DNA from: Elusimicrobiota bacterium
Lineage (GTDB): Bacteria > Elusimicrobiota > Endomicrobiia > Endomicrobiales > Endomicrobiaceae
Assembly (NCBI GenBank): GCA_017529005.1
Contig: JAFXOB010000221.1
Coordinates: 1 to 43,297 of the forward strand
Direction of reading: 5' to 3'
DNA: 43,297 bases
The notes under the pieces were generated by a model that was not told where the DNA came from, ran no database searches, and saw nothing but the letters and a program-made list of their open reading frames with translations. The stretch's first letter is position 1, and every line of letters starts with the position of its first letter. Shown here piece by piece: positions 1 through 32,044 of the stretch. A program made the position numbers and the translations under genes.

Positions 1-217
1 ATATTGTAGATTTTTCATCAGGAATCATTTCCGGAGTTTCTTTCGGTAAACCGGTATCTACAAGAATTACATCACTGCCTGTATCTATTAAAAAATTTTG
101 TAAACTTGAACGATATTTTATTGAAGAATCAAATTTGTCCGACCCTTCTTCACCGCCGAAAGCGAAAGGTTGTGTCATAAATCCGTTTTCATAAAATTTT
201 ACTGCTTTTATAATCAT
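1..217 (-). CDS. MBL-fold metallo-hydrolase, N-terminal part (cut by window edge)
   Basis: Reading the minus strand from the ATG at 217, an open frame runs off the left edge. It begins MIIKAVKFYENGFMTQPF and contains NFLIDTGSDVILVDTGLP, the first beta-strand pair and DTG turn typical of metallo-beta-lactamase-fold hydrolases. A good Shine-Dalgarno (AAGGAG, 222-227) precedes the start. The metal-binding HxHxDH motif would lie beyond the edge, so the substrate cannot be guessed. The glutathione peroxidase gene ends 25 bases upstream on the same strand, so the two may be co-transcribed. Confidence 0.7.
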   Translation of the reverse strand, partial: MIIKAVKFYENGFMTQPFAFGGEEGSDKFDSSIKYRSSLQNFLIDTGSDVILVDTGLPKETPEMIPDEKSTI

Positions 218-242
218 AAATTTACTCCTTAATTTTGGTAAT

Positions 243-869
243 TTACAACAATTCTTTAATGCATTTTTCTACAACTGCCATATCTTCCGTGGGTTCAAAT
301 CTTGCAACAACGTTTCCGTTTTTATCTACAACAAATTTCGTAAAGTTCCATTTTATATCTGAATTTTTTTCATAGTTCGGATCTATTTTTGAAAGATGTT
401 GTTTCATAAACTGAGCCATTTTACTTTCTCCGAATCCTTTAAAACCCTGCTGATCCTTTAAATATTTAAATAAAGGCAATTGATTATCTCCGTTCACATC
501 GGACTTTTTCATTTGAGGGAAAGTTGTGTTGTAATGTAATGTACAAAATTCGTGAATTTCGTCATCTGTTCCCGGTGCTTGTCCGCCGAATTGGTTGCAA
601 GGAATATCAAGTATTTCAAGCCCTTTTGCATGATAATCTTTATACATCTGTTCTATCGGTGCATATTGCGGTGTAAATCCGCAACCTGTTGCAGTGTTTA
701 CTATTAAAACAACTTTACCTTTAAAATCAGCCATTTTAATTTCTTCGCCTTTTGCACTTGTAACGGAAAAATCGTAAAAGTTTGCCATTTTGTCTTCTCC
801 TTTTATATTATTTATTGAAAATATTGAGATCAGAATAAAAATTGATAATAAAATTTTGAAAGTTTTCAT
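243..869 (-). CDS. Glutathione peroxidase-family thiol peroxidase, probably exported
   Basis: Reduces peroxides using a cysteine, likely with thioredoxin as reductant as in most bacterial family members. The thioredoxin-like fold is clear: NTATGCGFTPQY with peroxidatic Cys63, CNQFGGQAPG with Cys91 and Gln93, and WNFTKFVVD with Trp174-Asn175, giving a complete Cys/Gln/Trp/Asn set. A cysteine replaces selenocysteine. The first 25 residues (KTFKILLSIFILISIFSI) look like a signal peptide, suggesting periplasmic action. However, the ATG at 869 has no Shine-Dalgarno, while the internal ATG at 788 (Met28) has AAGGAG 8 bases upstream and would give the usual cytoplasmic length of 181 residues. Both starts may be used; the start is the uncertain part, not the family. 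Confidence 0.88.
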   Translation of the reverse strand: MKTFKILLSIFILISIFSINNIKGEDKMANFYDFSVTSAKGEEIKMADFKGKVVLIVNTATGCGFTPQYAPIEQMYKDYHAKGLEILDIPCNQFGGQAPGTDDEIHEFCTLHYNTTFPQMKKSDVNGDNQLPLFKYLKDQQGFKGFGESKMAQFMKQHLSKIDPNYEKNSDIKWNFTKFVVDKNGNVVARFEPTEDMAVVEKCIKELL

Positions 870-13671: not shown

Positions 13672-14549
13672 AACATTTTTTATCCTCAATAAAATGTAAT
13701 TATAAATGTAATGAGCCGTTATCAAAACATACCACATTGTGTATAGGCGGTAACACAGATTATTTTGTTGAAGTTGAAACCGAAGAACAGTTGTTATCAT
13801 TATTAAAGTTTATAAATGAGAATAAAGTAAAGTTTTTTGTTATCGGCGGCGGTTCAAATATTTTATTTAGTGACGAAGGTTTTAACGGGATAGTGATAAA
13901 ACTTTCCGGTAAATTTTATAAATATGAAATATTTCAAAATATAGTTGTTTGCGGTAGTGCGGTAAGTTTAACTTATTTAGCACAACAAACAGCTGAGCAA
14001 GGGTTAAGCGGTTTAGAGCTTCTTTCCGGAATTCCGGGAACAGTAGGCGGTGCAGTTTACGGTAATGCAGGAGTAAAAAATTGTTCCATATCCGATATTA
14101 TTGATAAAATAGAAGTTGTTGATTATTTCGGAAATAAAAAAGTTTTAACTAAAAATGATATCAAATTTGAATATAGAAAAAGTGACTTGCAAGGCAACAT
14201 TATAACTAAGATATTTCTTGTCTTGAAAAAAGCTGATAAAAATGATATTTTAAAGACGATTTCACAAGAGCTTAAAAGAAGAAAAAGCTCGCAACCAATC
14301 GGCACTAAAAACGCAGGATGTATATTCAAAAATCCGAAAGATGATAGTGCAGGACGACTGATAGATTCTCTAAAACTTAAAAGTTATAGTGTCGGCGGGA
14401 TAAAAATATCCGATGTACATGCAAATTTCTTTATTAATAAAGATAACGGTTGTGCAAAAGATATGATAAGCTTAATAGATTTTGTAAGAAACGAAGTTTA
14501 TAAGAAATATAATATAAAACTTGAAACGGAAATAAAGATAATAAAATGA
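13635..14549 (+). CDS. murB: MurB, UDP-N-acetylenolpyruvoylglucosamine reductase
   Basis: FAD enzyme forming UDP-MurNAc. FAD contacts are IGGGSNILFSDEGFNG (70-85) and SGIPGTVGGAVYGNAG (131-146). Tyr180-Arg181 lie in EYRKSDLQG, the proton donor is Cys229 (NAGCIFKNP; many species use Ser) and the final acidic residue lies in LETEIK. No ATG exists near the expected N-terminus: the only standard start is TTG at 13635, inside murC. GGGAG (13644-13648) is followed 5 bases later by ATT codons, so a rare start codon is conceivable. The exact N-terminus is unsettled; the family is certain. Confidence 0.93.
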   Translation: MATGRRIIKNNIEHFLSSIKCNYKCNEPLSKHTTLCIGGNTDYFVEVETEEQLLSLLKFINENKVKFFVIGGGSNILFSDEGFNGIVIKLSGKFYKYEIFQNIVVCGSAVSLTYLAQQTAEQGLSGLELLSGIPGTVGGAVYGNAGVKNCSISDIIDKIEVVDYFGNKKVLTKNDIKFEYRKSDLQGNIITKIFLVLKKADKNDILKTISQELKRRKSSQPIGTKNAGCIFKNPKDDSAGRLIDSLKLKSYSVGGIKISDVHANFFINKDNGCAKDMISLIDFVRNEVYKKYNIKLETEIKIIK

Positions 14550-15445
14550 TAAATTTAAAAAATAAAAAAATAGGTGTGTTGTGCGGGGGAACATCTTCGG
14601 AAAGAGAAATCTCTTTAATGTCTGGTAAAGCAGTTTATAATGCAATAAAAAAATTAGGTTTTAAAACCGTTTTAATAGATGTAAACAAAAATGTAGCTCA
14701 AAAGTTGGTAAAAGAAAAAATAGATGTTGCATATATAACTTTGCACGGAACACCCGGTGAAGATGGAACAATTCAAGGTATGCTTGAAATTATGGGGATA
14801 CCTTATACCGGTTGCGGTGTATTTTCAAGTGCTGCAACTATAGACAAAATAATATCAAAAAAGATGTTTGAATCGGCAAAAATTCCTACGGCTAAATGGA
14901 CAATGATAGAAAAATTAAAACCGTTTGAAGAAATTCCTTTTCCCGTTGTCGTAAAACCTGCATCACAAGGTTCTGCAATAGGAATATCAATAGTAAAAAA
15001 CAAAAAAGAGTTTGAAAAAGCAGTAAAATTAGCTTTTTCTTATGAAGATAGAATATTGGTGGAAAAATATATTAAAGGTATAGAAGTTACTGCAGGTGTA
15101 TTAAACGGCAAACCTTTACCGGTGATAGAAATTGTTCCTAAAGGTAAATTTTATGATTTTAAATCTAAATATACCGTAGGGCAATCAACACATATTATTC
15201 CTGCAAGATTATCCGAAAAGGTATTGCACAAGATACAAAACATTGCATTGAAAGTTTATGATGAGTTCAGATGTAACGGAACATGCAGAGTTGATATGAT
15301 AGTAGATAAAAATAACGATATATATGTTTTGGAAGTAAATACTCTTCCGGGTATGACAAAAACATCGTTATTTCCGGATGCCGCAAAACATATGGGATTA
15401 AGTTTTGAAGATTTGGTATTGGAAATTTTAAAATCGGCAAGATAA
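14546..15445 (+). CDS. ddl: Ddl, D-alanine-D-alanine ligase
   Basis: Joins two D-alanines for the stem peptide. ATP-grasp enzyme of 299 residues with GVLCGGTSSEREISLMSG at the N-terminus, the serine loop ASQGSAIGIS, and the metal-binding end CRVDMIVDKNNDIYVLEVNTLPGMT. It overlaps murB by 4 bases (ATGA), so the order murC-murB-ddl-ftsQ-ftsA-ftsZ of the classical division and wall cluster is preserved, without murG, ftsW or murD in view. Confidence 0.96.
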   Translation: MINLKNKKIGVLCGGTSSEREISLMSGKAVYNAIKKLGFKTVLIDVNKNVAQKLVKEKIDVAYITLHGTPGEDGTIQGMLEIMGIPYTGCGVFSSAATIDKIISKKMFESAKIPTAKWTMIEKLKPFEEIPFPVVVKPASQGSAIGISIVKNKKEFEKAVKLAFSYEDRILVEKYIKGIEVTAGVLNGKPLPVIEIVPKGKFYDFKSKYTVGQSTHIIPARLSEKVLHKIQNIALKVYDEFRCNGTCRVDMIVDKNNDIYVLEVNTLPGMTKTSLFPDAAKHMGLSFEDLVLEILKSAR

Positions 15446-15446
15446 A

Positions 15447-16454
15447 ATGGCTATAAAAATAATTAAAGGTAAAAAAAGACCAAAAAAAACAGAAAACAAA
15501 ATAACAAAAAATGGAGCAAAAAAGACTGTAGGCAAAAGGTCTGTAAAAAAAGCTTCTCAAAATAAACATGTAAGATCTGTTGTTTTAACAGATTCGCCTA
15601 AAATTCCTTATGGTGTTCGTGTTTTAGTAAAACCTGAAAATAAAATTAAAGAAAAGAAAAACGAAATAAAAAAATCGATTAAAAAGATTTTCCGTAATGT
15701 TATTATATTGCTTTTTATTATTTGTTTAGCTTTTTCAAGTGTATATGCTTACAATCATTTGATGTCTTATTTATGTTCTCTTGAAAGATTTTTTATAGAA
15801 AATATAGAAGTTAACGGATGTAAAAATATTACCGAATCAGAAATAATGAACACAATTCCGTTTAAAGTCGGAGAAACGGCGATAGGAATAAATTTATGGC
15901 AATTTGAAAAAGATTTAATGAATATTAAATCTGAATTAAAAAAAGTTTCTGCTTATAGAAGGAATTGGTTCGGTAAAGGAAAGAAAATAAAAGTGGTTGT
16001 TTCTTTAACCGAAAGAGAGCCGGAAGTATTTATTTATAATAAAGGAAATAAAGAAGGATTGGATTTTGACAACAAACCTTTTAATTTAAGAGGCAATATG
16101 TCTTTAATGCAAATTCCTTTTTTGTTGTACGATACTGAACAAGACAGACAAACACTGTTACATTTTTACAAAAATCTTAAAACTTATTTTTCTGATTTAA
16201 TTCCGGAAATGAAGGAGATAAAGTTTGGTGAATTGGATGATATTGTTATAACGATGAACAACGGAACGGAAATATATTGGGGTTATCCGAAAGAAAGTAA
16301 AATAAAAGAAAAAGTTAGAAAGTTTTTTGCTATTTCAAAAGATTTAGCTAATAAAAAGCAAGGGATGGATTATATAGATTTAAGTTTTCTTGATGTAAAC
16401 AAAGATAAAGTAATAGTAAAAATTTCAAATATAAATGAAGAAGTAAAAAAATAG
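15447..16454 (+). CDS. ftsQ: FtsQ/DivIB-like cell division protein
   Basis: Bitopic divisome protein linking FtsB/L to the ring. It has a long, very basic cytoplasmic N-terminus (residues 1-83, many KK pairs), one membrane helix (about 84-101, NVIILLFIICLAFSSVYAY), a POTRA domain starting FIENIEVNGCKNITESEI (about 117-185) and the beta FtsQ domain. The 83-residue lysine-rich tail is longer than in E. coli. The start lies 1 base after the ddl stop. Identification rests on architecture and position between ddl and ftsA; the sequence itself is divergent. Confidence 0.9.
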   Translation: MAIKIIKGKKRPKKTENKITKNGAKKTVGKRSVKKASQNKHVRSVVLTDSPKIPYGVRVLVKPENKIKEKKNEIKKSIKKIFRNVIILLFIICLAFSSVYAYNHLMSYLCSLERFFIENIEVNGCKNITESEIMNTIPFKVGETAIGINLWQFEKDLMNIKSELKKVSAYRRNWFGKGKKIKVVVSLTEREPEVFIYNKGNKEGLDFDNKPFNLRGNMSLMQIPFLLYDTEQDRQTLLHFYKNLKTYFSDLIPEMKEIKFGELDDIVITMNNGTEIYWGYPKESKIKEKVRKFFAISKDLANKKQGMDYIDLSFLDVNKDKVIVKISNINEEVKK

Positions 16455-16465
16455 GAGTTTAACAG

Positions 16466-17776
16466 ATGGATAAAAATGTGTTTTTAAGTTTGGATTTGGG
16501 AACAAATTCTATTCATGGTGTATTTGCTAAATATAACGATGAAAACCAAATTGAAATTTTATCTGCGGAAACATTTGTTTCCGAAGGTGTGAAATGCGGT
16601 GCGATATCCGATATAAGTGCTGCCGAATATACGGTAGACAAATTTTTAACTAAAGCGGAAAACGAATATAATTTAAAAGAAGTTAAATTGGTATGTGCAA
16701 TAAGAGGTTCTCAAATAGAAGTTTTTAGTTCAGAAGCCGGTTTAGCATTAAAGAACAGTGATGATACTAATATCTGCAGAGTTACGGAAGAAACAATATC
16801 GGATATAAGAAACAGGTTGGAGGAAGCAAACAAACTTCCGGAAAACAAAGAAACAATAGAAATAATACCGCAACAATATAAATTAGATGATCAGGAAGTT
16901 ATAAATCCGGAAAGAATGGGCGGTAAATATTTAGAGTTATCTGCAGTGGTTGTAACCGGATTAAAAAGTTATTTAACCAATATAAGGCAGGCAACTGGTG
17001 GAGATATTTTAAGATACGGATACACGGCAATTGCAAACACTTTGGTCTCTAAAGAGGATAAAGAATACGGTTGTATTTTAGTTGATATCGGCGGAATGAC
17101 TACCGGTGTTGTTGTTTATGTTGAAGGAAAATTAAAACATGCTTTTGAACTGAATTTCGGTTCTGATTATGTTACAAGAGATATATTAAAAAAGCTAAGA
17201 ATTACTTTAAAAGAAGCAAAAGCAATAAAAGAACAATATGGTTATATTTTGGAAGACCTTATTACGAAAAATACCGAGTTTGAATATAGTGTTTTAGGAA
17301 ACCAAAAACAAAAATATACGGTAAAAGATTTAGTTGATATTATAAAACCGCAAGTTGAATTACAGTTAAGAGAAATAAACTCTGCTCTTTTAAAAAGAGG
17401 TGTAAAAGCGGACGAATTGGTAGGCGGATTTTTATTAACCGGCGGCGGCTCTTTGTTAAAAGGTATGCCTGAAGCTTTTTCAAAGTATTTTTCCACTAAC
17501 GCTAAATGTGTTAATTTTGTACATGATGATTTTGTCTATTCACAAGAAAAAAAAGAAAACTTTGACTCTGTAATTAATTCACAGGTATATACTTCATGTT
17601 TTGCAATATTAAAAAACAAAACAAAAAATTTAATGGATAACGATTACGCCGAAGGTGAAGAAGAACAGGAAGAAGAAAGTGTTTATGAAGATGAAGACGG
17701 AGAATCTGTAAGTACAACGAAAAAGATTTTGAAAAAGATTCAAGCTGCCATAAAAGCTTTTAAAAAAAATTCTTAA
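16466..17776 (+). CDS. ftsA: FtsA, actin-like membrane anchor of the Z ring
   Basis: Actin-fold ATPase that tethers FtsZ to the membrane. It has SLDLGTNSIHGVFAK (phosphate 1), LVDIGGMTTGVVVYVEG (phosphate 2) and LLTGGGSLLKGMPEAF (adenosine). The C-terminal 45 residues are an acidic linker (AEGEEEQEEESVYEDEDGE) followed by an amphipathic helix KKILKKIQAAIKAFKKN, the membrane-targeting sequence. AGGAG precedes the start. ftsZ follows after 14 bases. Confidence 0.95.
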   Translation: MDKNVFLSLDLGTNSIHGVFAKYNDENQIEILSAETFVSEGVKCGAISDISAAEYTVDKFLTKAENEYNLKEVKLVCAIRGSQIEVFSSEAGLALKNSDDTNICRVTEETISDIRNRLEEANKLPENKETIEIIPQQYKLDDQEVINPERMGGKYLELSAVVVTGLKSYLTNIRQATGGDILRYGYTAIANTLVSKEDKEYGCILVDIGGMTTGVVVYVEGKLKHAFELNFGSDYVTRDILKKLRITLKEAKAIKEQYGYILEDLITKNTEFEYSVLGNQKQKYTVKDLVDIIKPQVELQLREINSALLKRGVKADELVGGFLLTGGGSLLKGMPEAFSKYFSTNAKCVNFVHDDFVYSQEKKENFDSVINSQVYTSCFAILKNKTKNLMDNDYAEGEEEQEEESVYEDEDGESVSTTKKILKKIQAAIKAFKKNS

Positions 17777-17790
17777 CGGAGAAATGAGTT

Positions 17791-18918
17791 ATGGAAAATA
17801 TTGAAATAAGATTTCCAAATAATAATAATGAAGTAATAATTCCCGATGCAAAAATAAAAATTGTCGGCGTAGGCGGAGCCGGAACAAATGCAGTTACAAG
17901 AATGATAATGGCAAATATTACAGGCGTTAAACTTTATGCCGTAAATACTGATAACGGTAGTTTAAAAAAATCTGCCGCAGAAAACAGAGTTTCTATAGGA
18001 ACAGGATTAGGTGTCGGCGGAGATCCTGTAAAAGGAAAACAATATGCGGAAGAAGCCGTTGATAAATTTAGAGATATATTGCAAGGTGCAAATATGGTTT
18101 TTATTACTACCGGTATGGGAGGAGGAACAGGAACAGGTGCAGCTCCCGTTATTGCAAGAGTATCAAAAGAGTTAGGAATTTTAACGGTTGGTGTAGTAAC
18201 AAGACCATTTACGGCAGAAGGACCCGAAAGAGTTGAAAATGCGAAACTCGGTATAGCTGAAATGAGAGAATATACCGATGCTTTAATAGTTATTCCTAAC
18301 GACAGAATATTTACTTTGGTTGATTCAAAAACTCACTATGAAAAAGGGTTTGAAGTTATAGATGATGTGTTAAGAAGATCAATAGAATCTATTACCGATA
18401 CAATTACAAAAACCGGAACGATAAACATAGATTTTGCAGATGTTAAAGGTGTGTTATCGGATGTAGATAATGCCATTATAGGTTTGGGAGACGGGCAAAC
18501 TTTGGAAGAAGCTTTTCAAAATGCCATTACGAACAAATTTGTTGAAGGTGAAGATATAGTAGATGCACACAAAATATTGATAAATATTTCATATTCTAAT
18601 ATAAATGAGATTGCAGTCGGTGATGTCAAATATGCATACGATTATTGTGCAAAAGAATTTAGACATTATAAATCTTTAAAAGTTGGTAATATAGAAAATA
18701 ATGAACTTGACACAAAAATCAGAGTAGCAATAATAGCTTCCTTCAAGAAAGATAGTGTACAAGATACGGACAAGGAAGAAGAAGATCAATTAGGCTTATT
18801 TAAAAATAAAGATACTTCGGAAGATATAAGCAGAAATAAAAAAACAGAAGAAACAAAAAAAGAAGAAGATATTTTTTCAAAGCCGGCTTACGAAACTTAT
18901 AAACCTACAAAATTATAA
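17791..18918 (+). CDS. ftsZ: FtsZ, tubulin-like division GTPase
   Basis: Polymerises into the Z ring. GVGGAGTNAVTRMI (26-39), the tubulin signature GGGTGTG (110-116), TRPFTAEGPERVENA and the T7 loop NIDFADV (212-218) are intact. The linker after about residue 315 is short and charged (DTDKEEEDQLG...). The extreme C-terminus is EDIFSKPAYETYKPTKL rather than the common DIPxFLRxR peptide that binds FtsA and other partners, though its ED-I-x-x-PAY core may be a diverged form. ACGGAG precedes the start, and pgeF follows 5 bases after the stop. Confidence 0.97.
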   Translation: MENIEIRFPNNNNEVIIPDAKIKIVGVGGAGTNAVTRMIMANITGVKLYAVNTDNGSLKKSAAENRVSIGTGLGVGGDPVKGKQYAEEAVDKFRDILQGANMVFITTGMGGGTGTGAAPVIARVSKELGILTVGVVTRPFTAEGPERVENAKLGIAEMREYTDALIVIPNDRIFTLVDSKTHYEKGFEVIDDVLRRSIESITDTITKTGTINIDFADVKGVLSDVDNAIIGLGDGQTLEEAFQNAITNKFVEGEDIVDAHKILINISYSNINEIAVGDVKYAYDYCAKEFRHYKSLKVGNIENNELDTKIRVAIIASFKKDSVQDTDKEEEDQLGLFKNKDTSEDISRNKKTEETKKEEDIFSKPAYETYKPTKL

Positions 18919-22576: not shown

Positions 22577-23101
22577 CTATTTTTTCTTACCTTTTTGTTC
22601 TTTGTTTTGTTTTTTGTCTTGTTCTTTCTTTTGATGATTTATTTTTTCCTGTTTGAAATTTTCCATTGTTTGTTTTCTGGCTTGTTCCATTCTGGAATAT
22701 TGTTCAAAAGTAAGAATGCTTCTGACATTTAATTTACTTTCAATATTTATTTTTGCAATTTCTGCATTTAATTGTTGAATTTCTTCAGATAATTTATTTA
22801 CTACATAAATATCAAATTTTTCTTTCATTAATTCTTCATCAATAGCAGTTGATTTTTCTTTTATTTGCTGTCTTAACTCTCTTTTCTTTTCTAAATCTGT
22901 TTTCATTAATTCATTTATTTTTTGTTTCTGTTCATCGGTAATCTTTAGCTCTTTGGAAATTTTTTCAAAGTCCAATTTCATTTGTTGTTGATGTTTTTGT
23001 GGCGGTTCCGGCGGTATATTACCTTTGTCACTTTTTGGTGGTGCTGCAAAAATAAAACTGCTTACAAATAATACTGATACTAAACTTACAAATTTTTTCA
23101 T
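22577..23101 (-). CDS. Spy/CpxP-like periplasmic LTXXQ-motif protein
   Basis: Small envelope-stress protein with a signal peptide (MKKFVSLVSVLFVSSFIFAA, cleavage near residue 20), a Pro/Gln segment and then long charged helices. ISKELKITDEQKQKINEL and ILTFEQYSRMEQA are the paired motifs of the Spy/CpxP fold, which forms a cradle-like dimer. The tail is Lys/Gln/Glu rich (KKEQDKKQNKEQKGKKK). It is the last gene of the tolC-macA-macB operon, 35 bases after macB, with AGGAGG before its ATG, and may sense or buffer what the pump handles. The chaperone role is inferred from the family. Confidence 0.8.
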   Translation of the reverse strand: MKKFVSLVSVLFVSSFIFAAPPKSDKGNIPPEPPQKHQQQMKLDFEKISKELKITDEQKQKINELMKTDLEKKRELRQQIKEKSTAIDEELMKEKFDIYVVNKLSEEIQQLNAEIAKINIESKLNVRSILTFEQYSRMEQARKQTMENFKQEKINHQKKEQDKKQNKEQKGKKK

Positions 23102-23136
23102 ATATCCTCCTCAAAATAAATTCAAAAGATAAACCA

Positions 23137-25092
23137 TCAATCGTATCTAAGAGCTTCAATCGGCGATAATTCCGATGCTTTCTTTGCCGGCCACAAACCG
23201 AACACTATACCTACAATTGCGGAAAAGCCTACAGATAAAACAATTGAAAAAGTAGATATAAATGTTGCCCATCCCGCAACTTTAGATACGATAACCGATA
23301 TACCTATACCTAAACTTACACCTAATATTCCGCCCAGTAACGATAATACCGATGACTCTATTAAAAACTGTAAAAGAACTGCAATTCTTGTTGCACCGAT
23401 AGCCTTCCTTAATCCTATTTCTCTGGTTCTTTCACTTACACTTACAAGCATTATATTCATAATACCTATACCACCGACTATTAACGATATACCCGCAACA
23501 GCGCCCAAAAGCATTGTCATTGTTTGAGTTGTAGATGTGAGCATTTGTATCATGTCCGACATGTTTCTTATTCTGAAAGCGTCTGCCTGTTCGGAAGTCA
23601 GTTTGTTTCTTTCAAGCATTGTTTGTAGTAAATAAGTTTCGGTTTCACTCATTTTACCATCTTGAACTTCAACGGCAACGGAAGATACATAATTTGTTCC
23701 CAATAATCTTTTCATAGCAGTATTTAAAGGAACTATCACCATATCGTCACCATCCCTATAACCTTGAGCACCTTTTACCGGTAAAATTCCTATGACTCTA
23801 AATTGTTTTCTGTTAATTTTAATATATTTGCCTACAGGATTTTCATTTCCGAAAAGGTTTTTTACTACCGTTGTTCCTATAACACAAACTTTAGCCAAAT
23901 TTTCATTTTCAGATCTTGTAAAGAATCTGCCGTATTGAGGAACAGCATTTTGTAAGTATTGATAAGCAGGAGTAGCACCGGTAATTGAAGTATTTGAATT
24001 TTTGTTACCGTAAACAACCTGCACAGAGCCATTTACATTAGGATCAATATTTTTTATTAGTTCGGTATTTGTTGCAAGAGCTTCAACATCTTTTAAATAT
24101 ATTCTTCTTGCAACTGTACCCGAAACACCACCTAACGAAATTCTTCCCGGCATCAAATATAATAAATTGGTTCCCATAGATGTTATTTGCTGTTCAAGTG
24201 CTTTTTGTGCTCCGTTACCTAAAGCTAACATGGATATAATTGAAGCAACACCTATGATTATACCAAGCATAGTTAAAATTGATCTTGTTTTGTTAGAAAT
24301 AATTGCTCTTATTGCGGAAAAAAAATTCTCTGCAAATTCGGCTATACTTAAATGTGAGCTTTCTTTTTTTATTTTTAAAGGTTTTGTATCTACTTTTTCT
24401 TTTTTCTTTTGAATTGTGTCGGATAACACTTGTCCGTCTTTAATCATTATAAGTCTGTCTGCCCATTTTGCAATATCAGGTTCGTGAGTAACCAAAATTA
24501 CACTTATACCTTTTTTGTTTAAGTCTGTTAATATTTGCATTATTTCGTTAGACTGTTTTGAAGATAAGTTTCCGGTAGGTTCATCCGCAAAAATTATTTT
24601 AGGGTCGTTTACTAAAGATCTTGCTATTGCTACTCTTTGTTGTTGTCCTCCGGAAAGTTGTGTCGGTTTATGTTCTATTCTGTCACTTAATCCTACTTCA
24701 TTAAGTAATTGTTCAGATTTCTCTTTTCTGTTTTTACCGCCGGAATATACCATAGGTAAAGCAACATTATCTGCAGCAGTCATTTTGTTTAACAAATTGT
24801 ATTGTTGGAAAACAAAACCTATAATTTTTGATCTTAAAAAAGCGGTTTGATTATCGTTAAACTTTAAAACATTTTCACCATATATTTCATATACACCATC
24901 CGTAGGTCTGTCAAGTAAACCTAATATGTGCATGAGTGTAGATTTACCCGAACCGGAAGGTCCCATAATAGCAACAAATTCACCCTCTTCAACGGTTAAA
25001 TTTATACCTTTTAAAATGTCGAGTCTGTTATCACCGACATTATAAACTTTGGTAATGTTTTTTATTTGTAATAATGGTACATGCTTTTCCAT
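23137..25092 (-). CDS. macB: MacB-type ABC transporter, fused ATPase and permease
   Basis: Mechanotransmission exporter working with an adaptor and TolC. The N-terminal ATPase has GPSGSGKST (44-52), LSGGQQQRVAIARSL and IIFADEPTGNL. After a charged linker come the first membrane helix (NKTRSILTMLGIIIGVASIISML), the large periplasmic MacB core domain (GNGAQKALEQQI...GYRDGDDMVIVPL) and three C-terminal helices with SVSERTREIGLRKAIGATR. The length of 651 residues matches MacB. The ATG has no Shine-Dalgarno; the gap to macA is filled by an 8-bp-unit repeat element. The exported substrate is unknown. Confidence 0.93.
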   Translation of the reverse strand: MEKHVPLLQIKNITKVYNVGDNRLDILKGINLTVEEGEFVAIMGPSGSGKSTLMHILGLLDRPTDGVYEIYGENVLKFNDNQTAFLRSKIIGFVFQQYNLLNKMTAADNVALPMVYSGGKNRKEKSEQLLNEVGLSDRIEHKPTQLSGGQQQRVAIARSLVNDPKIIFADEPTGNLSSKQSNEIMQILTDLNKKGISVILVTHEPDIAKWADRLIMIKDGQVLSDTIQKKKEKVDTKPLKIKKESSHLSIAEFAENFFSAIRAIISNKTRSILTMLGIIIGVASIISMLALGNGAQKALEQQITSMGTNLLYLMPGRISLGGVSGTVARRIYLKDVEALATNTELIKNIDPNVNGSVQVVYGNKNSNTSITGATPAYQYLQNAVPQYGRFFTRSENENLAKVCVIGTTVVKNLFGNENPVGKYIKINRKQFRVIGILPVKGAQGYRDGDDMVIVPLNTAMKRLLGTNYVSSVAVEVQDGKMSETETYLLQTMLERNKLTSEQADAFRIRNMSDMIQMLTSTTQTMTMLLGAVAGISLIVGGIGIMNIMLVSVSERTREIGLRKAIGATRIAVLLQFLIESSVLSLLGGILGVSLGIGISVIVSKVAGWATFISTFSIVLSVGFSAIVGIVFGLWPAKKASELSPIEALRYD

Positions 25093-25106
25093 AATTTTAG
25101 TTCATC

Positions 25107-25196
25107 GGTTTATGAGGTTATTGGTTATTTTTTAGTTGCAGTTTGCCGTTAAACCTATAACCTTATAATCCTATAATCCTATAATCTTATAACCTG
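25107..25196. repeat. 8-bp-unit palindromic element, family R copy A
   Basis: The plus-strand left arm is GGTTTATG-AGGTTATT-GGTTATTT, the core TTTTTTAGTTGCAGTTTGCCGTT, and the right arm, read on the minus strand, has five 8-bp units (AGGTTATA, AGATTATA, GGATTATA twice, AGGTTATA). It fills the macA-macB gap and abuts the macA stop codon. Confidence 0.8.
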
Positions 25197-25198
25197 TC

Positions 25199-26200
25199 CT
25201 ACTGTTTTTTCGGTGCTCCAGAATTATTTAAGATCTCTTTATTGCTTTTTCTTTTTCCCGGTCCCATAGACAAAAATCCTTTAGTCATTTCTTTAGTAGT
25301 AGCAATATTATATTTGTCTTGTTTAACTAAAATAGTATCACCTTTAGAAAGTCCCGAAGTTACTTCAACATTGTCTCCATCAAAAATACCGGTGATTATT
25401 TTATGTTTATTTTGCTGCATTTCATCGCCAACCAAAACAAAAGTTTCTCCTTGTTCATCTTCAACAAAACTGTCCCAAGGAATAACTACGGCATCTTTTT
25501 GTTCTTTAACTATGATATCTATGTTTGCCGTCATTAACGATTTAAAAAATGCCGGTGTTTTTTCCGGTCTTATTTTTACATAATATGTAATAACATTACT
25601 AACATTTTTACCTTCTTCCAAAATTTGAAATACTTTACCGTTAATAGTAACATCTTTGTAAGCATCAAGTGTTATTTCTGCTCTTTGCCCGTTTTTTATT
25701 TTTCCGATATCTGCTTCATCAACACTTGCTAAAACTATTAATTCATCTGCTAAAGCGTACAAAATATCATTTGTAGAAATTGTTTGACCTTCAACGACAT
25801 TTCTTAAAATTATTTTACCGTTCATAGGCGAAATTACCGGAGTTGCTTTATATGTGTTTTCCCAATCTTTTATATTTTCGTTAGGATTTGCTCTAACGGC
25901 ATCAAGTATTGCAACTCTATCGGAAGAACTTAAATATGCTAACACTTGCCCTTTTCTTACGGTATCGCCTTCATTAACTAAAAGTCTGTCAACTCTACCT
26001 GACACTGAAGGTTTTATTTCTACTCTGTTTAAAGCAGATACTTCACCGGTAGTATCGATAATTTCTTTAACATCTGCCGTTGTTACCGTATAAGGCATAT
26101 AAACTATCTCCGGCACCTTTTCTTTTTTATCTCTAAGTTGATAAGTTATTATTATTCCAAGTACAAGAAGTATCGTAAAAATTGTTGCTGCTTTTTTCAT
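25199..26200 (-). CDS. macA: MacA/HlyD-type periplasmic adaptor, short-hairpin form
   Basis: Membrane fusion protein linking MacB to TolC. It has an N-terminal anchor (ATIFTILLVLGIIITYQL), a lipoyl half-motif (VSGRVDRLLVNEGDTVRKGQVLAYL, about 68-92), only about 30 residues of spacer, the second half (PVISPMNGKIILRNVVEGQTI), then beta-barrel and membrane-proximal domains. Typical MacA carries a long alpha-hairpin between the lipoyl halves; here it is almost absent, making the protein 333 residues. It ends with a Gly/Lys/Asn-rich tail. It overlaps tolC by 4 bases. Confidence 0.9.
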   Translation of the reverse strand: MKKAATIFTILLVLGIIITYQLRDKKEKVPEIVYMPYTVTTADVKEIIDTTGEVSALNRVEIKPSVSGRVDRLLVNEGDTVRKGQVLAYLSSSDRVAILDAVRANPNENIKDWENTYKATPVISPMNGKIILRNVVEGQTISTNDILYALADELIVLASVDEADIGKIKNGQRAEITLDAYKDVTINGKVFQILEEGKNVSNVITYYVKIRPEKTPAFFKSLMTANIDIIVKEQKDAVVIPWDSFVEDEQGETFVLVGDEMQQNKHKIITGIFDGDNVEVTSGLSKGDTILVKQDKYNIATTKEMTKGFLSMGPGKRKSNKEILNNSGAPKKQ

Positions 26201-27459
26201 TTTATTTCTCCGTGGGTATCACCCAAAAGTCTATCTCTTTTAGCTAATGCTAAATTATAATTATGTAAAGCGGAAAGATGTGACATTTGACTGTTTACAT
26301 ATTCTTGTTCTATATCTTGCCAAGTTTGAAATTCCATCGTTCCTGCTCTATATTTTATTGTTGCTTCTTTTTGTCTTTGAATTGCTGCTTCTAAAAACAA
26401 TTTATATATTTCTATATTATCTTTTGTTCGTTCGATATCTGCCAAAATTTCTTCTAAAGTTGTTTTTGTTGTAAGTATTGTTTGTTTGTAACTTTCTTGA
26501 GCCTTTTCTAAAGACGTCTTTGCAGCTTTTATACTATTTAACGAACTTGTAATACCACCTGAAAATAACGGATAATTCAGACCTACTCCAACACTCCAAT
26601 TTTTACTGTTTGCTGGAGGTATAGGATTAGTTTCGTCGGAAACACCTATTGAAGCAGATGCAGAAATATTCGGATAAAGATTTCCTTTGGAAGAGTCTAC
26701 ACTATATTTTGCTATTTCTACCGTCGATGATGAAAGTATTACATCCGGACAGTTTGCTACTGCATTATCTACGTCTATATTTGTGGTATCTTCAACTTCC
26801 TCTAACTTATAATCTACCGTGCATAAAGAAGTTAATTCCGTCCCTAAAGTTTGCGCAAGAGTTCTTCTTGCAACTGCCAAATCTCTTTTAGCATTAGATA
26901 CGTTTACATAAGCAGACTGTTTTTGAGCTTGTGCTCTTAACATGTTACCTTTACTTTCTTTACCACCTTCATATTGTAATCTAACAATATCGGCAGATTG
27001 TTTTCTCATATTATAAATGCTTTCTAAAAGAGTAATGTTTTCTTGAGCGAAACACATTTGTAAAAAGGCTTGTCTTAAAGAATAATAAACATCTGCAGAA
27101 GATTTTGTAAGTTGTGCAACCGTTTTGTTTATATTAGCTTTTTGGCTATGTATTTGTGCATTAGATTGAAAATTGTAAATTGTTTGAGAAGCATTTAAAC
27201 TTGCACTCCAGTTGTTTCCGGTGTGCCCGTTGCCGCTTCTTGAAAATCCGTACTTAAAGTTTACGGACGGATAATATTTGTTTAATATTATGTTGTAATC
27301 ATATTCTGCAATTTGTAAATCTTGTTTTGCCATTAACAGAGTATTATTAGTTTTGTTTGCAATATCAATACAATCTTGCCAAGTTAACGTTTCGGCATTT
27401 GCATAACAAACAAACACCATTAAACAAAATATTATTAATGTGTATAAACTCTTTTTCAT
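26197..27459 (-). CDS. tolC: TolC-family outer membrane efflux channel
   Basis: Trimeric outer-membrane duct of the MacAB-like pump. It has a signal peptide (KSLYTLIIFCLMVFVCYANA) and two outer membrane efflux repeats of long helices (about 25-215 and 230-415), with SVGVGLNYPLFSGGITSSLNSI and the ending YNLALAKRDRLLG typical of the family. The length of 420 residues is normal. Its ribosome site GGAG sits in the loop of a small hairpin (27463-27483). First gene of the minus-strand operon tolC-macA-macB-spy. Confidence 0.92.
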   Translation of the reverse strand: MKKSLYTLIIFCLMVFVCYANAETLTWQDCIDIANKTNNTLLMAKQDLQIAEYDYNIILNKYYPSVNFKYGFSRSGNGHTGNNWSASLNASQTIYNFQSNAQIHSQKANINKTVAQLTKSSADVYYSLRQAFLQMCFAQENITLLESIYNMRKQSADIVRLQYEGGKESKGNMLRAQAQKQSAYVNVSNAKRDLAVARRTLAQTLGTELTSLCTVDYKLEEVEDTTNIDVDNAVANCPDVILSSSTVEIAKYSVDSSKGNLYPNISASASIGVSDETNPIPPANSKNWSVGVGLNYPLFSGGITSSLNSIKAAKTSLEKAQESYKQTILTTKTTLEEILADIERTKDNIEIYKLFLEAAIQRQKEATIKYRAGTMEFQTWQDIEQEYVNSQMSHLSALHNYNLALAKRDRLLGDTHGEIK

Positions 27460-28162: not shown

Positions 28163-28957
28163 ATGAAAAAGTTTTTTAGTCTGTTAGCAGTATTAACAGT
28201 AACGATGTTTATGGCGGGAAGTGCTTTTGCAGATATAAACATTGTAAAATCTGCATTTGCATCGTTTAGTGAAGTAGCAATGGTATTTGATGTAACTTTG
28301 TATGAATGGGTACAAAATAAAGATTATTCCACTTATACAGGTACAGGAGCAGATTCTATTGCTTTTGATGTTTCAGGAGTTACATTAGGTAATACGTCTG
28401 CACAGTGGGCAGGCGGAACTGTGTTTGCAAAAGTTCATTCAAATTTATCAGTTCAACAAGCAGGAACAACGGTTTATATGTTCACAAAAAATACTACCGC
28501 AACAGGTGATTATAAAGCAAATGCCGGCAGAACGTCCGGAGAAGATACTTTCTATAGTGGACTTGTAAGAAAAGGTAATACAACAACATATCAAGAAGGT
28601 GATTTTGCACCTTTGTTTGTAAAATGCAAAAAAGTAACTGATGCTAATGCTTCTTATAAATCGGCATTACCTGCAGATTTCAGTGCAGAAGAACCATTTA
28701 ACGGTTCAAGAATTTTAGTTGATTACAGTGATTCCAATTTTTCAACTTTAGCAGATCTTTCAAGAGTTATCGGTAAAAGCGGAGTTAACGGCGGTATTTG
28801 GGTTGGTTACGGAAGTGATCCGTCAACAGCTCCTGCAACGGATTGGTATGCAGGAAACGAAGATGTTATTATATTCTTCGGAGCAAATTTCGACCATGTA
28901 ACAAGCGGTTCGGAATACGGAACAACAACAATAAATTTTGTTCAATCAATAGAATAA
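28163..28957 (+). CDS. Secreted protein of unknown function, paralogue 1
   Basis: A 264-residue protein with a clear signal peptide (MKKFFSLLAVLTVTMFMAG, cleavage after SAFA). The mature part starts DINIVKSAFASFSEVAMVFD, is Thr/Ser/Gly/Asp rich, has one cysteine and looks all-beta. The mid-region contains GDYKANAGRTSGEDTFYSGL and the end is EDVIIFFGANFDHVTSGSEYG. The next gene encodes a paralogue. A strong AGGAGGT site and a dedicated promoter suggest high expression, perhaps as a surface or pilin-like subunit, but no family is recognised. Confidence 0.8.
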   Translation: MKKFFSLLAVLTVTMFMAGSAFADINIVKSAFASFSEVAMVFDVTLYEWVQNKDYSTYTGTGADSIAFDVSGVTLGNTSAQWAGGTVFAKVHSNLSVQQAGTTVYMFTKNTTATGDYKANAGRTSGEDTFYSGLVRKGNTTTYQEGDFAPLFVKCKKVTDANASYKSALPADFSAEEPFNGSRILVDYSDSNFSTLADLSRVIGKSGVNGGIWVGYGSDPSTAPATDWYAGNEDVIIFFGANFDHVTSGSEYGTTTINFVQSIE

Positions 28958-28993
28958 AAAAGTAGTAAAAAATAAAAACGGAGGTAGTTTAGT

Positions 28994-29740
28994 ATGAAGA
29001 AATTTTTTAGTTTGTTAGCAGTATTGGCATTGGTAGGTATGGTAAGTAGTGCAGTTTGGGCAGCCCCAACAACAGAAGCAACACACACGGCTCTTGCGAG
29101 TTTTTCAGGAGGAACTATTTCTTTTAGTGCAGATTTGTATAATTGGAATTCAACTTATACAGGAACAACAGCAACAAATATAACTTTTAATACTGATGGC
29201 TTTATATTAGGTAGCTCAACTCCAGTATTCAAATGTGCAAGTGTTTATGCTTTAATACAATCGAATATTACTGCTTCTACTGGAAAAGTTTGGGTTTATC
29301 AAGATAACAAAAATAATTCCGATTCTAAGTATGTAGCAACTACAGGAAGAACAGATGGTTCTAATACTTTAGTTAGTGGTCTTGTAAAAGCTAATTCTGG
29401 TGGTAGTAAGGCAGAACATTTTGCCCCTCTTAAAGCATATTATAAAAAACTTAGTGATGCAAAAAATGTGATTACGACACTTCCAACACAATTTCCTCCA
29501 GATGGTGTAGGAGAGTATGGAGTTTATAATTTTGTAGATAAAGGTGATTCTAATTATGTTGCAAAAGATCCATATACATTAATTGCAACAGGTGATGGTA
29601 ACTATGTTGGAACTAACGAATGGGGAAGAAATTATGTTAAAGAAGATGTTGTAATGTTCTTTGGTGCAACATTTACAAATGTTTTGGGTGGAGATAGCTA
29701 CGGAACAAACAGTATAACTTTTATATCTGAAATAGAATAA
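28994..29740 (+). CDS. Secreted protein of unknown function, paralogue 2
   Basis: A 248-residue paralogue of the preceding protein. The signal peptide begins with the same MKKFFSLLAVL (cleavage after VWA). Shared landmarks, in order, are ASFSGGTISFSADLYNW, YVATTGRTDGSNTLVSGLVK, EHFAPLKAYYKKLSDA and EDVVMFFGATFTNVLGGDSYG with an SITFISEIE end. ACGGAGGT precedes the start, 36 bases after the first gene. The mature N-terminus lacks the NIVKSAFA motif found in its two neighbours. The tandem arrangement points to duplication and divergence; the function is unknown. Confidence 0.8.
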   Translation: MKKFFSLLAVLALVGMVSSAVWAAPTTEATHTALASFSGGTISFSADLYNWNSTYTGTTATNITFNTDGFILGSSTPVFKCASVYALIQSNITASTGKVWVYQDNKNNSDSKYVATTGRTDGSNTLVSGLVKANSGGSKAEHFAPLKAYYKKLSDAKNVITTLPTQFPPDGVGEYGVYNFVDKGDSNYVAKDPYTLIATGDGNYVGTNEWGRNYVKEDVVMFFGATFTNVLGGDSYGTNSITFISEIE

Positions 29741-29750
29741 TTATACTTTC

Positions 29751-29782
29751 TTGGATAGCGGTATTTTTATACCGCTATCCAA
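29751..29782. other. Perfect 14-bp hairpin without U-tract
   Basis: TTGGATAGCGGTAT and ATACCGCTATCCAA flank TTTT. It sits just after paralogue 2 and 18 bases before the next ATG. Neither strand has a following T run, so an mRNA-processing or 3'-stabilising role, or rho-independent termination with a poor tail, are alternatives. Confidence 0.75.
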
Positions 29783-29799
29783 CCCTGTAAAAAATTTTA

Positions 29800-30984
29800 A
29801 TGATAAAAAAAATTAGTATAGAAATATTATCTTTAATAGTCTTGTTTGGTGTTTATGTATGCACTTTTGCAGCACCTATAAATATAGTGAAATCTGCTTT
29901 TGCAAAATTTCCTAAAGTTATAGCTAAAATAGTGCATGATGAGATAGTTGCTGTTTCTTCGATAGACAGGTTACTAAATGCAAAAATTTCAGTAGATTTT
30001 ACCGGTTATGAATCTGCTACGGCAAAACTTGTTTATTATTTAAACGGAGACCAAAGCACTAAACAGGAAGAACCTGTTAATGAGGGTAAAAAAATAAATA
30101 ACAAACAGGACTTTTATATTTCGTTACCGCAATTTAGCGATACGGATACTTCCGTATCTTATCAAATAAAAATAGCTTTGAAAGATGCTGCCGGTAATAC
30201 GTTCTATGCTTATTGGCCGTCGAGTGATACAGCCAAATTTAACACATCGCAAATTACAAGTATTGCATCTAAAGTTATAGGAACAGACGGTGGAATAGTG
30301 GAGCTTGAAAGCGGTAACCAAGAAATAGGAAACAGTGCAATAACTGTGCAACCGGGAACATTTACTAGCGATATAAAAGTAATTATAGAAGAATTTGATC
30401 CTAACGATGAATTATTTTTGTCTGCCGGAAAAGCAAAATCCGTTCAAGAAAGAGTTAGAGCTTACAGTATAAGAACGGAACCCGCAATAGACACATTTAA
30501 GTTGCCTTTATCTGTTCAGTTATCTAATGCAACACAACTTAATATACAAAAGTTTGAATTGAAATACAGAAAAGATAATTCAACGACATGGAACAAAGCA
30601 GAAAAAATAAAAATAGATAACATAGATACTGTCCAAAAATTGTTGTTTGCAACAGTTACAAAAACCGGACAATATATGATTTTTGCTGCCTCAAATTTAA
30701 CGGATAATGATTACAGACCGGAAAACAGAGTTAGAGTAAAATCGAGAATTTCTGCTTATGGTGGATTTAAGTTTAACAACTTGAAAGATGGTGATAGTGT
30801 TAAAATATATACAACAAGCGGTAAGAAAATTGCCGAACTTACAGCTGGTGATTATGAAGGATTTGAATGGAAAGGTAGAAAAGGTACCAATAACAGCGGT
30901 GATTGGGCAGAGAGTGGTACTTATATCTATCAAATAAAAGTTAACGGTAAAGTTATAAGCGGAACGATAGCTTTTGTTTGGTAA
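29800..30984 (+). CDS. Secreted protein with C-terminal FlgD-like Ig domain
   Basis: A 394-residue exported protein: signal peptide (ISIEILSLIVLFGVYVCTFA), then APINIVKSAFAKFPKV, which repeats the mature start of the first paralogue (INIVKSAFASF). The middle holds beta-rich modules, including an Ig-like stretch and a ZU5/GAIN-like SGNQEIGNSAITVQPGTF region. The last 75 residues (VKIYTTSGKKIAELTAGDYE...GTYIYQIKVNGK...GTIAFVW) form the FlgD-Ig fold used as C-terminal sorting or assembly domain in several diderm phyla. No ribosome site is visible. Role in cell-surface export is inferred. Confidence 0.8.
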   Translation: MIKKISIEILSLIVLFGVYVCTFAAPINIVKSAFAKFPKVIAKIVHDEIVAVSSIDRLLNAKISVDFTGYESATAKLVYYLNGDQSTKQEEPVNEGKKINNKQDFYISLPQFSDTDTSVSYQIKIALKDAAGNTFYAYWPSSDTAKFNTSQITSIASKVIGTDGGIVELESGNQEIGNSAITVQPGTFTSDIKVIIEEFDPNDELFLSAGKAKSVQERVRAYSIRTEPAIDTFKLPLSVQLSNATQLNIQKFELKYRKDNSTTWNKAEKIKIDNIDTVQKLLFATVTKTGQYMIFAASNLTDNDYRPENRVRVKSRISAYGGFKFNNLKDGDSVKIYTTSGKKIAELTAGDYEGFEWKGRKGTNNSGDWAESGTYIYQIKVNGKVISGTIAFVW

Positions 30985-31006
30985 AAATTTTGCAAAGCAA
31001 AATTTT
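30984..31006. terminator. Short stop-proximal hairpin
   Basis: AAAATTTTGC-AAA-GCAAAATTTT (30984-31006) is a perfect 10-bp stem beginning at the stop codon of the FlgD-Ig gene. Only a TTTT tail follows, so termination would be weak. Confidence 0.5.
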
Positions 31007-31020
31007 GAGGAATGGAGAAA

Positions 31021-31109
31021 AAGAGGGATAGAGGTATAGAAGAAATAATAATATAGAAAAAGTCGTAGTTTGTATTTTCCATACCTCCATACATCCATAC
31101 CTCTATACA
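31021..31109. repeat. 8-bp-unit palindromic element with GAGGTAT units
   Basis: The left arm is AGAGGGAT-AGAGGTAT-AGAAG; the right arm on the minus strand is AGAGGTAT-GGATGTAT-GGAGGTAT. The core has AAAAAGTCGTAGTTTGTATTTTCC. It has the same architecture and 8-base period as family R but a different unit. It ends 9 bases before the next start codon. Confidence 0.65.
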
Positions 31110-31117
31110 TTAGAAAA

Positions 31118-32044
31118 ATGAAAAAGATTTTAGTATTTTTATTGTTAATTATAATGGTAGCAATAAATCAACAGGTTCAAGCTGCCTTTGTTGATACCTA
31201 TTGGGGGGTAAGGGCATTAGGTATGGGCGGTGCATATACTGCCGTAGCAAACGATTCAAATGCACCTTTGTATAATATTGCAGGTATATCTTTTGCAGCA
31301 CAAAAAGAAGTTACTTTGATGGGCTCAAGATTGTTTGCCGGTGTAGAAGGAGTAGAAATAGGTGCAAATTATTTAGGATATGTACATCCTATAAGTTTGG
31401 AGTATGGAGCGGTATCTTTTGCATGGTCGTCAACATCAACACCTGGGTTAAGAAGAGAAGATACATTTAATATAGGTTATGCGAGAGAATTAAACGATAT
31501 AGTTAATTTAGATAAAGAAATAGTAGAAATAAGTGCAGGTTTGAATTTAAAGTATTTAATGCAGGAAGTAAAATTTGATGAGGAAGATAAAGATTTATCA
31601 ACAAGTAAAGGTGCAATGACGGCTGATATCGGACTTTTAGCAATGTTTTCCAACGGAATAGGTGTAGGTTATAGCAGCAAATATTTAGTCCCTGCCGATA
31701 TTGGATATTTGGAAAAAGATGAAGTTAATAATGTAAATGTTTTAGGTTTAAGTTATTACAATGAAGAATTGCCATATTTAAAGATACCATATTTTACCAT
31801 AGCAATGGATGTAATATTCAGAGATAACGAAACATCGATAAGAGCCGGTGTGGAAAGTTATGTAATAGACGGTAAACTTGCAATAAGGTTAGGCGGCAGA
31901 GAAGAAGCATTTGATATAGGTTTCGGATATGAGTTTGCATTCGCAAATGAAACTAAATTAATAATAGATTATGCATTGGAGTTACCGTTACAGGTGGAAG
32001 AAAGTTACGGGTCACACTTCATTTCTTTGTCATTTAGATTCTAA
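31118..32044 (+). CDS. PorV/PorQ-like (UPF0164-type) outer membrane beta-barrel protein
   Basis: Signal peptide MKKILVFLLLIIMVAINQQ (cleavage after VQA), then FVDTYWGVRALGMGGAYTAVANDSNAPLYNIAGISFA, the hallmark start of the PorV/FadL-like barrels that act in type IX secretion and related surface export. Alternating beta-strands follow, ending SHFISLSFRF with the C-terminal aromatic expected for barrel insertion. I start at 31118 because the signal peptide begins there; the longer frame from 31070 runs through the GAGGTAT repeat. The neighbouring FlgD-Ig protein makes a secretion link plausible, but no other T9SS genes are seen. Confidence 0.82.
   Translation: MKKILVFLLLIIMVAINQQVQAAFVDTYWGVRALGMGGAYTAVANDSNAPLYNIAGISFAAQKEVTLMGSRLFAGVEGVEIGANYLGYVHPISLEYGAVSFAWSSTSTPGLRREDTFNIGYARELNDIVNLDKEIVEISAGLNLKYLMQEVKFDEEDKDLSTSKGAMTADIGLLAMFSNGIGVGYSSKYLVPADIGYLEKDEVNNVNVLGLSYYNEELPYLKIPYFTIAMDVIFRDNETSIRAGVESYVIDGKLAIRLGGREEAFDIGFGYEFAFANETKLIIDYALELPLQVEESYGSHFISLSFRF

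Follow-up and report, generated by a model that had tools for sequence, protein, structure and literature searches.

The window analysed here is a 43,297-nucleotide stretch from an Elusimicrobiota bacterium (assembly GCA_017529005.1, contig JAFXOB010000221.1, positions 1 to 43,297, forward strand). The subject of this report is a four-gene operon on its + strand (28163-32044), P1 to P4, which probably encodes a donor-strand surface fibre with the third protein as its base and no usher. The genome belongs to the Endomicrobiaceae (Elusimicrobiota) and, by kinship, to the genus Ruminimicrobiellum, a rumen lineage according to passages of a genome study (PMC11257099). It is a 1.86-Mb draft, 88.7% complete, in which the window is contig C89. 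Proteins of the P1/P2 type are called A, those of the P3 type D and those of the P4 type E, and the letters B and C stand for proteins encoded in sister operons.

All four proteins of the cluster named in the original prediction are present as open reading frames (ORFs) on the + strand. P1 (subunit A1, 264 residues, 28163..28957) is a predicted shaft subunit, and its signal peptide (about 28163-28231) is followed by the mature N-terminal strand DINIVKSAFASF (28232..28267), the putative donor strand. P2 (subunit A2, 248 residues, 28994..29740, signal peptide about 28994-29062) is a paralogue of P1, as had been proposed (37% identity, E 2.1e-22). Its mature N-terminal strand, APTTEATHTALASF (29063..29104), keeps the register of P1 with letters unlike those of P1 and P3. 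A 14-bp stem-loop (29751..29782) lies between the last A gene and D, in a gap that folds at -23.6 kcal/mol. P3 (protein D, 394 residues, 29800..30984, signal peptide about 29800-29871) is the predicted donor-only base or anchor, and its mature N-terminal strand, APINIVKSAFAKF (29872..29910), matches that of P1. P4 (protein E, 308 residues, 31118..32044) is a PorV/PorP-like outer-membrane barrel encoded directly 3' of D; the ATG at 31118 is preferred over the TTG at 31070, and relatives begin at the corresponding Met. The Pfam scan of P1 gave no family at E up to 1 and that of P2 gave one unrelated match below the cut-off. The similarity of P2 to midcut-by-XrtH (E 0.0087) is also below the cut-off.

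The operon family in related genomes

The genes P1 to P4 represent the A-A-D-E form of an operon type that recurs across the family and the order. Relatives of P3 are present in 58 of 99 related genomes (E 0.001 or better), with many matches spanning just the common C-terminal domain, and gene order was read in stretches around the better of these matches. The recurring order is A, then C and B (in either order or missing), then D and finally E, where C has about 250 residues with two Ig-like domains and B has about 420. Full flanks are available for 18 of the 48 D-containing groups, which read AADE (3), ACBDE (3), ABCDE (2), ABDE (2) and BDE (2), with single cases of AACDE, ACD, DE, BCBDE, ACBDDE and D alone; the remaining 30 are near or cut by the ends of contigs or stretches. 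One stretch, L160, has A, B, C and E and no D. Three paralogous operons of this kind lie within about 14 kb of one genome (L049:4718-18421), each with its own strand letters.

The window's own genome holds two further D genes (contigs C136 and C156) and two C genes (contigs C107 and C156), and the window operon itself has no B. The C gene on C107 (G000:C107, L172:3033-3794, - strand) stands alone on its 4.9-kb contig, with no A, B, D or E, and may act in trans as a partner of the window operon. In L066 and L074 (and, cut, in L072), B, D and E form a module that lacks A, with a predicted acceptor next to a predicted donor-only protein; its B gene shares 50 bases with the E gene of the operon before it. 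This module is perhaps a second part of the preceding operon, or a B-D device without a shaft.

The N-terminal strand of A and D

The match between the mature N-termini of P1 (DINIVKSAFASF) and P3 (APINIVKSAFAKF), from which the original prediction started, is borne out. Aligned without gaps, the two N-terminal regions score at best 54, for a segment that takes in one signal-peptide residue, with cleavage sites set by eye and by a crude script, and 2,000 residue shuffles never exceeded 41. A search of the genome for other exported proteins beginning with NIVKSAFA had been suggested as a check. Zero-mismatch matches to this pattern occur solely in P1 and P3, and three mismatches add 12 more places, for totals of 7 forward and 7 reverse against 6 and 3 with the reversed-pattern control. 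A genome-wide exported motif is thus ruled out, as the exact letters are confined to two proteins and looser matches stay near the control level. What is conserved, in orthologues and in paralogous operons, is the strand as a match between A and D.

This matching was tested operon by operon on residues 16-62 of each precursor, with no cleavage prediction. Three of the 48 D groups have D cut at its 5' end, and 17 of the other 45 have no intact A, which left 28 for the test. The grouping left L148 and L149 unlinked to their A genes, and L164 kept one false A (by eye a 307-residue lipoprotein); the best-scoring A was used. In the 28 operons, matched A-D pairs score 32.3 and unmatched pairs 22.6 (0 of 5,000 permutations). 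The corresponding values are 34.6 and 22.7 in the 20 operons whose D proteins are less than 60% identical, where the cognate D ranks first for 8, and 33.2 and 22.1 in the 14 operons with D less than 45% identical (0 of 3,000 permutations in both sets). Eight genomes have two or three operons each, 20 in total; within these genomes matched pairs average 29.0 and off-diagonal pairs 21.3, and the observed sum is reached in 46 of 20,736 permutations. The operons are related and not independent, so the permutation figures should not be read as strict probabilities, though the 45% set and the comparison within genomes address this kinship in part. The control pairs A-E, A-C, A-B, B-D, D-E and D-C (9-15 operons each) are flat, the lowest at 586 of 3,000, and there is no matching signal when the A or D windows are moved inwards (lowest 224 of 3,000). 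As read from these sequences, a common N-terminus of A and D of one operon is the general rule, with letters that change between operons.

The 15 operons scoring at least 30 have 140 shared residues, including some at the signal-peptide end, of which 61 have the same codon, and 53.4 are expected from codon usage. This near-expected codon identity indicates that the A-D match is not a recent DNA copy, and by this comparison the kept feature is a protein strand, not DNA. In a profile comparison of 22 A with 21 D proteins, the common part consists of the signal peptide and the strand (38 columns, E 4.8e-7, probability 92.5), and nothing in common was detected beyond them. When aligned on the closing Phe, both A and D are hydrophobic at positions 0, -2 and -4 and polar at -1 and -5, while -6 is hydrophobic strongly in D and partly in A. 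The alternating register of the aligned residues is that of a strand buried on one side.

Predicted folds, roles and export

The AlphaFold2 (AF2) models are of joined chains, and in the P1-P2 chain the natural stops were read through. The P1-P2 model has a mean predicted local distance difference test (pLDDT) of 70.2 and a predicted template-modelling score (pTM) of 0.53. Among the 50 structure rows listed for it, chaperone-usher pilus subunits or adhesins account for 44 (Z 4.5-6.3), including CfaE, PapA, FimI, FimF, FimA, CupE, CsuE and PapH; two each of TLP-1, Pyrodictium cannula proteins and glycosidases make up the rest. Seven rows fall on P2 and 43 on P1. Of the latter, 31 begin at residues 13-18 and 12 at residues 1-10, mostly with a larger root-mean-square deviation (rmsd). 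Alignments that begin at residues 13-18 leave the first ~12 residues of P1 where pilins carry their N-terminal extension. The row of FimA 5lp9 spans 7..501 of the model, which would fit P1's strand on P2's core, as a hint only. A hidden Markov model (HMM) of A was also compared with solved structures, and its six weak matches (five antibody chains and one carboxylesterase) were set aside, all lying on the N-terminal signal-peptide part. The HMM of E gave no solved structure at E 0.1.

The second model joins A2 and D of L068 (mean pLDDT 57.8, pTM 0.41), with D represented by just two extra alignment rows. The D strand (293-305) is beta in this model and A2's own N-terminus is coil. Two rows align the A2 core and the D strand as one unit, namely the hexosaminidase 8k2h (12..306, Z 7.5) and the CfaB-CfaB fusion 3f84 (15..306 on 150..298, Z 6.9). 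According to parts of PMC2650451, CfaB fusions carry an engineered in-cis donor strand at their end, and 3f84 was taken as such a construct from its title; with the P1-P2 model it aligned no further than its residue 285. Since 3f84 is aligned here to residue 298 and the CfaB fusion ends in a donor strand, D's strand would lie at the donor-strand place and, in this low-confidence model, may complete the fold of A. The same model of D reads strand, then Fn3/Ig-like domain, ZU5 (Z 11.4) and C-terminal domain. From it, the Fn3/Ig-like domain of P3 was placed at approximately 29914..30249 and its ZU5-like domain (best Z 11.4, to ankyrin ZU5) at approximately 30268..30687. The FlgD-Ig or type IX secretion system (T9SS)-type C-terminal domain, at approximately 30739..30984, was placed from sequence and structure matches. 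In Foldseek, the whole-chain matches of the two-chain models were weak.

The FlgD-Ig domain and the PorV-like barrel of the original prediction hold as likenesses, and by sequence both P3 and P4 stay below the curated cut-offs. The C-terminus of P3 matches CHU_C (E 0.0077), FlgD_ig (0.036) and Por_Secre_tail (0.0011), all below their cut-offs. Two D relatives were scanned for CHU_C (cut-off 27 bits), and one passes with 38 bits while the other has 23 bits. The C-terminal domain of D in the L068 model resembles PorZ, PorU and the T9SS translocon 8gl8 chain D (Z 7.7, 6.8 and 6.5). It matches solved C-terminal domains (CTDs), but no type B CTD structure had been solved according to PMC12618676, so that it may be of type A or type B. 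P4 matches PorV_fam at E 1.7e-8 with 34.5 bits, below the curated cut-off of 90 bits; another gene of the same genome (contig C137) passes it with 192 bits. PorV-family genes are present in 31 of 31 genomes, over the cut-off in 27, with 14 matches in the window's own genome. In Flavobacterium, a PorP/SprF-like gene is commonly found directly 3' of a type B substrate gene and its product is thought to hold the substrate at the surface, according to parts of PMC12618676 and PMC9143113. The D-E gene pair has this layout. The usher domain (PF00577) was found in 0 of 61 genomes, including the window's own (88.7% complete), and the E. coli control was positive. An SprA-like ORF of 1,868 residues lies in the same genome (G000:C27, L171:2378-7984, - strand; best E 9.7e-16) with three TIGR04189 stretches below the cut-off, and this ORF gave no Pfam family at E 0.01.

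The C-terminal half of B matches the A profile (Prob 99.7, E 3.1e-25), starting just behind A's strand. B thus carries the A core without the donor strand and would be an acceptor only, at the tip. Its N-terminal half has a weak match (E 4.7e-4) to the glucan-binding modules 2c24 and 1wmx, which we take to be CBM30. D, in turn, has the donor strand but no A-like core and would be a donor only, at the base. The best reading of these parts is one cap per fibre end, with B as tip, D as base and A, carrying both elements, as shaft. C is probably a periplasmic groove chaperone. A profile of 22 C proteins gave three matches at E up to 1 among solved structures, two of them EfmWxLIP1 (E 0.0013 and 0.0016), and no chaperone. 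As C genes exist elsewhere in the genome, on C107 and C156, the window operon could borrow one.

The stem-loop behind the A gene recurs in the operon family. A stem was counted when it had at least 12 bp (G-T pairs allowed) and started within 25 bases of the stop codon, in gaps of 35-350 bases, a threshold (12 bp, 25 bases) set after a first look at the data. By this count, 17 of the 21 gaps that could be tested behind the last A gene have a stem (ten further gaps were too short), against 0 of 20 C-D, D-E, C-B and B-D gaps. The A-A gaps have it in 1 of 5, E-A in 1 of 2 and B-C in 1 of 1; this B-C gap is in L149, where the first gene is perhaps an A whose start was set wrongly. Several D-E gaps fold well too, with no stem of the counted kind. 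The window stem (29751-29782) has no T run directly behind it. The stem-loop probably stabilises the A mRNA or partly stops transcription, helping to keep A above D, as is expected for a shaft subunit. Stem-loops in cellulosome mRNA are on record (PMC4423207).

Upstream of the fibre operon and divergent from it, a MacA/MacB/TolC-like exporter set (by eye) and a small exported protein are encoded on the - strand (22577-27459), and similar neighbours were seen in L059. A small GIY-YIG-like endonuclease ORF (by eye) is found near several operons of the family (L049:13526-13813, L051:454-744 and L059:296-586). Further upstream in the window (12319-18918, + strand) is a cell-wall and division cluster that reads, by eye, murC, murB, ddl, ftsQ, ftsA and ftsZ.

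Readings of the locus and comparison with known systems

The genes had been proposed to form a secretion or fibre-assembly set with an N-terminal donor-strand motif, and this agrees with the A-D match in the operons, the pilin-like predicted fold of A and the low-confidence A-D model. In the mechanism that we favour, A (P1 and P2) would be exported via its signal peptide, its pilin-like sandwich core would be incomplete, and the donor strand that fills the groove of the following subunit would come from the first ~12 mature residues of A (xINIVKSAFASF). The B proteins of sister operons would place their glucan-binding-like domain at the tip by means of an A-like core without a donor strand. 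D would copy the strand of its own operon's A and cap the last A groove as the base. The T9SS-type C-terminal domain of D would probably be taken over the outer membrane by an SprA-like translocon, and D would then be held by the barrel E (P4) encoded next door. C would probably act as the periplasmic groove chaperone, which the window operon may borrow from elsewhere in the genome, and the stem-loop would help to hold A in excess of D. The layout of the operon, the matching and register of the A and D strands, the core common to B and A, the stem-loop and the negative usher search are observations, while the insertion of strands, the polarity of the fibre, its export route and the role of C as a chaperone are inferences. 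We are less sure of the T9SS-type export route than of the donor-strand fibre with D at its base. Somewhat short of an even chance, in our judgement, is the wider proposal of a new class of Elusimicrobiota donor-strand pilus. In this class, the T9SS-type route would replace the usher, D would form the base in a dedicated PorV/PorP-like barrel, and a private A/D strand code for each operon would keep up to three fibre systems per cell unmixed.

Alternatively, the N-terminal segment could serve in sorting or processing, as a signal that a translocon, a protease or a barrel recognises once the signal peptide has been removed. In favour of this, the segment lies directly behind the signal peptide in both exported proteins, and D combines a T9SS-type end with a PorV-like partner. 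However, a signal used throughout a genome should not vary, whereas the letters here differ by operon and agree between the A and D encoded together, even among operons of a single genome. No match to the segment was seen in B, C or E of the operon concerned, and its alternating register is that of a beta strand, so that we regard a signal as unlikely. Chance, or a recent local copy of DNA with no function, would suit two genes that lie within 2 kb of each other and share letters found exactly nowhere else in the genome. It was rejected on the shuffle score and on the codon agreement, which is little above codon usage, and further operons have the match too, in different letters; we consider this explanation very improbable.

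A and D might instead be separate surface proteins in which the strand is a packing element that completes its own fold, with no polymer. AF2 made no strand of P2's N-terminus, the structural Z-scores are modest and the top Foldseek match is a glycan-binding surface protein, which speaks for this reading. Yet A and D have no detected similarity beyond the signal peptide and the strand, and it is hard to see how a single strand would fit the same groove in two otherwise dissimilar proteins. The strand lies outside the pilin-like core in most P1-P2 alignments, D's strand aligns with the core of A2 in the joined model, and B has the A core without the strand. We therefore give separate, self-completing proteins about the same small chance as a sorting signal, and the donor-strand fibre with D as base remains the reading preferred here.

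A number of points weigh against that fibre. In the window, C is missing from the operon and P2's strand differs from that of D. In the wider comparison, 5 of 20 operons have a cognate D that takes 11th place or lower for its A, several operons in the within-genome test have no excess, and part of the A-D profile match is signal peptide. All structure matches of A are under Z 8, the line drawn by the tool; homology to chaperone-usher pilins is therefore unproven, and the matches could reflect a common arrangement, pilins also being many in the PDB. With the P1-P2 model, the sole Foldseek match at E 0.001 or better is the Bacteroides surface glycan-binding protein 7kwb (E 2.8e-4, whole-chain rmsd 25), the pilin matches lie at E above 0.1, and P2's strand is not formed. 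3f84 is the sole pilin among the 50 rows of the A2-D model, which D's other domains fill. Block-mean pLDDT in the strand regions is 29-64, and strand insertion was read from alignment ranges and secondary structure. Four C proteins gave no PapD-family match (Pfam, E up to 1). On the export side, SprA-like matches (TIGR04189) occur in 49 of 61 genomes, with none over the cut-off and none of 14 controls positive. GldM was found in 0 of 31 genomes, but its control was silent too, so this zero carries no information, and GldL was not searched for. A and B have no recognised T9SS domain, and may cross the outer membrane through SprA with D or by another route.

If the proposal is true, diderms can build donor-strand fibres with a T9SS-type anchor in place of an usher, and the operon-specific strand common to shaft and base is a testable sequence code. 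Through its glucan-binding-like domain, B might let Elusimicrobiota of the rumen attach to plant fibre or to host cells. That an elusimicrobium may bind and not degrade cellulose is suggested by a single-cell study (PMC7031533). According to passages of the 2024 genome study of Endomicrobiaceae, pilins are the only encoded cell appendages, and these passages do not mention the present system (PMC11257099). Among the literature titles and abstracts listed, none links donor strands to a T9SS-anchored fibre or to Elusimicrobiota, and a paper on P. gingivalis Mfa4 (PMC4789730) contains both 'donor strand' and 'type IX'. There may be an earlier report of T9SS in Elusimicrobiota, as PMC12204202 and PMC7031533 contain both 'Elusimicrobi' and 'type IX secretion'.

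Several known systems resemble parts of this operon. Chaperone-usher pili are built from a shaft subunit, a two-domain tip without a strand, a chaperone and a donor-carrying terminator. Similar to these pili (type 1, P, CFA/I and the archaic Csu/CupE), the operon family has a predicted pilin-like core with a putative donor strand ahead, a two-domain strandless tip-like protein, a terminal protein predicted to carry the donor and a chaperone-like gene. In contrast, the usher was found in none of the 61 genomes here, C has no PapD match, and a PorV-like barrel and a T9SS-type anchor are present instead. Type V pili (Bacteroidota FimA/Mfa1) are usherless donor-strand fibres in a diderm, as is proposed here. 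Their subunits are lipoproteins trimmed by a protease, whereas the signal peptides of P1 and P2 end in ...SAFA/D and ...AVWA/A, with no lipobox Cys. The pairs of T9SS type B substrate and PorP/SprF-like protein also combine a CTD-bearing surface protein with its own FadL-like barrel gene behind it, according to parts of PMC9143113 and PMC12618676. Unlike in those pairs, D adds a donor strand, the host is outside Bacteroidota, the SprA-like gene is below the cut-off and the GldM search, with its silent control, gave no motor gene. In TasA/TapA of Bacillus subtilis, a minor operon partner copies the strand, has a complete fold and starts or anchors the fibre; the TapA N-terminus resembles the TasA donor strand and TapA's own fold is complete, as described in parts of PMC9674648 and PMC10151520. 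An N-terminus of the minor partner that copies the strand of the major subunit appears, at the sequence level, also in A and D. The differences are that P1 and P2 have no TasA/camelysin Pfam match, which rules out membership of that family by sequence, that the host is a diderm, that the partner D has a T9SS-type end and an outer-membrane barrel gene, and that a two-domain tip-like B and a chaperone-like C occur in sister operons. On its predicted parts, the operon would work like TasA/TapA and like chaperone-usher pili, and judged by sequence it is a member of neither.

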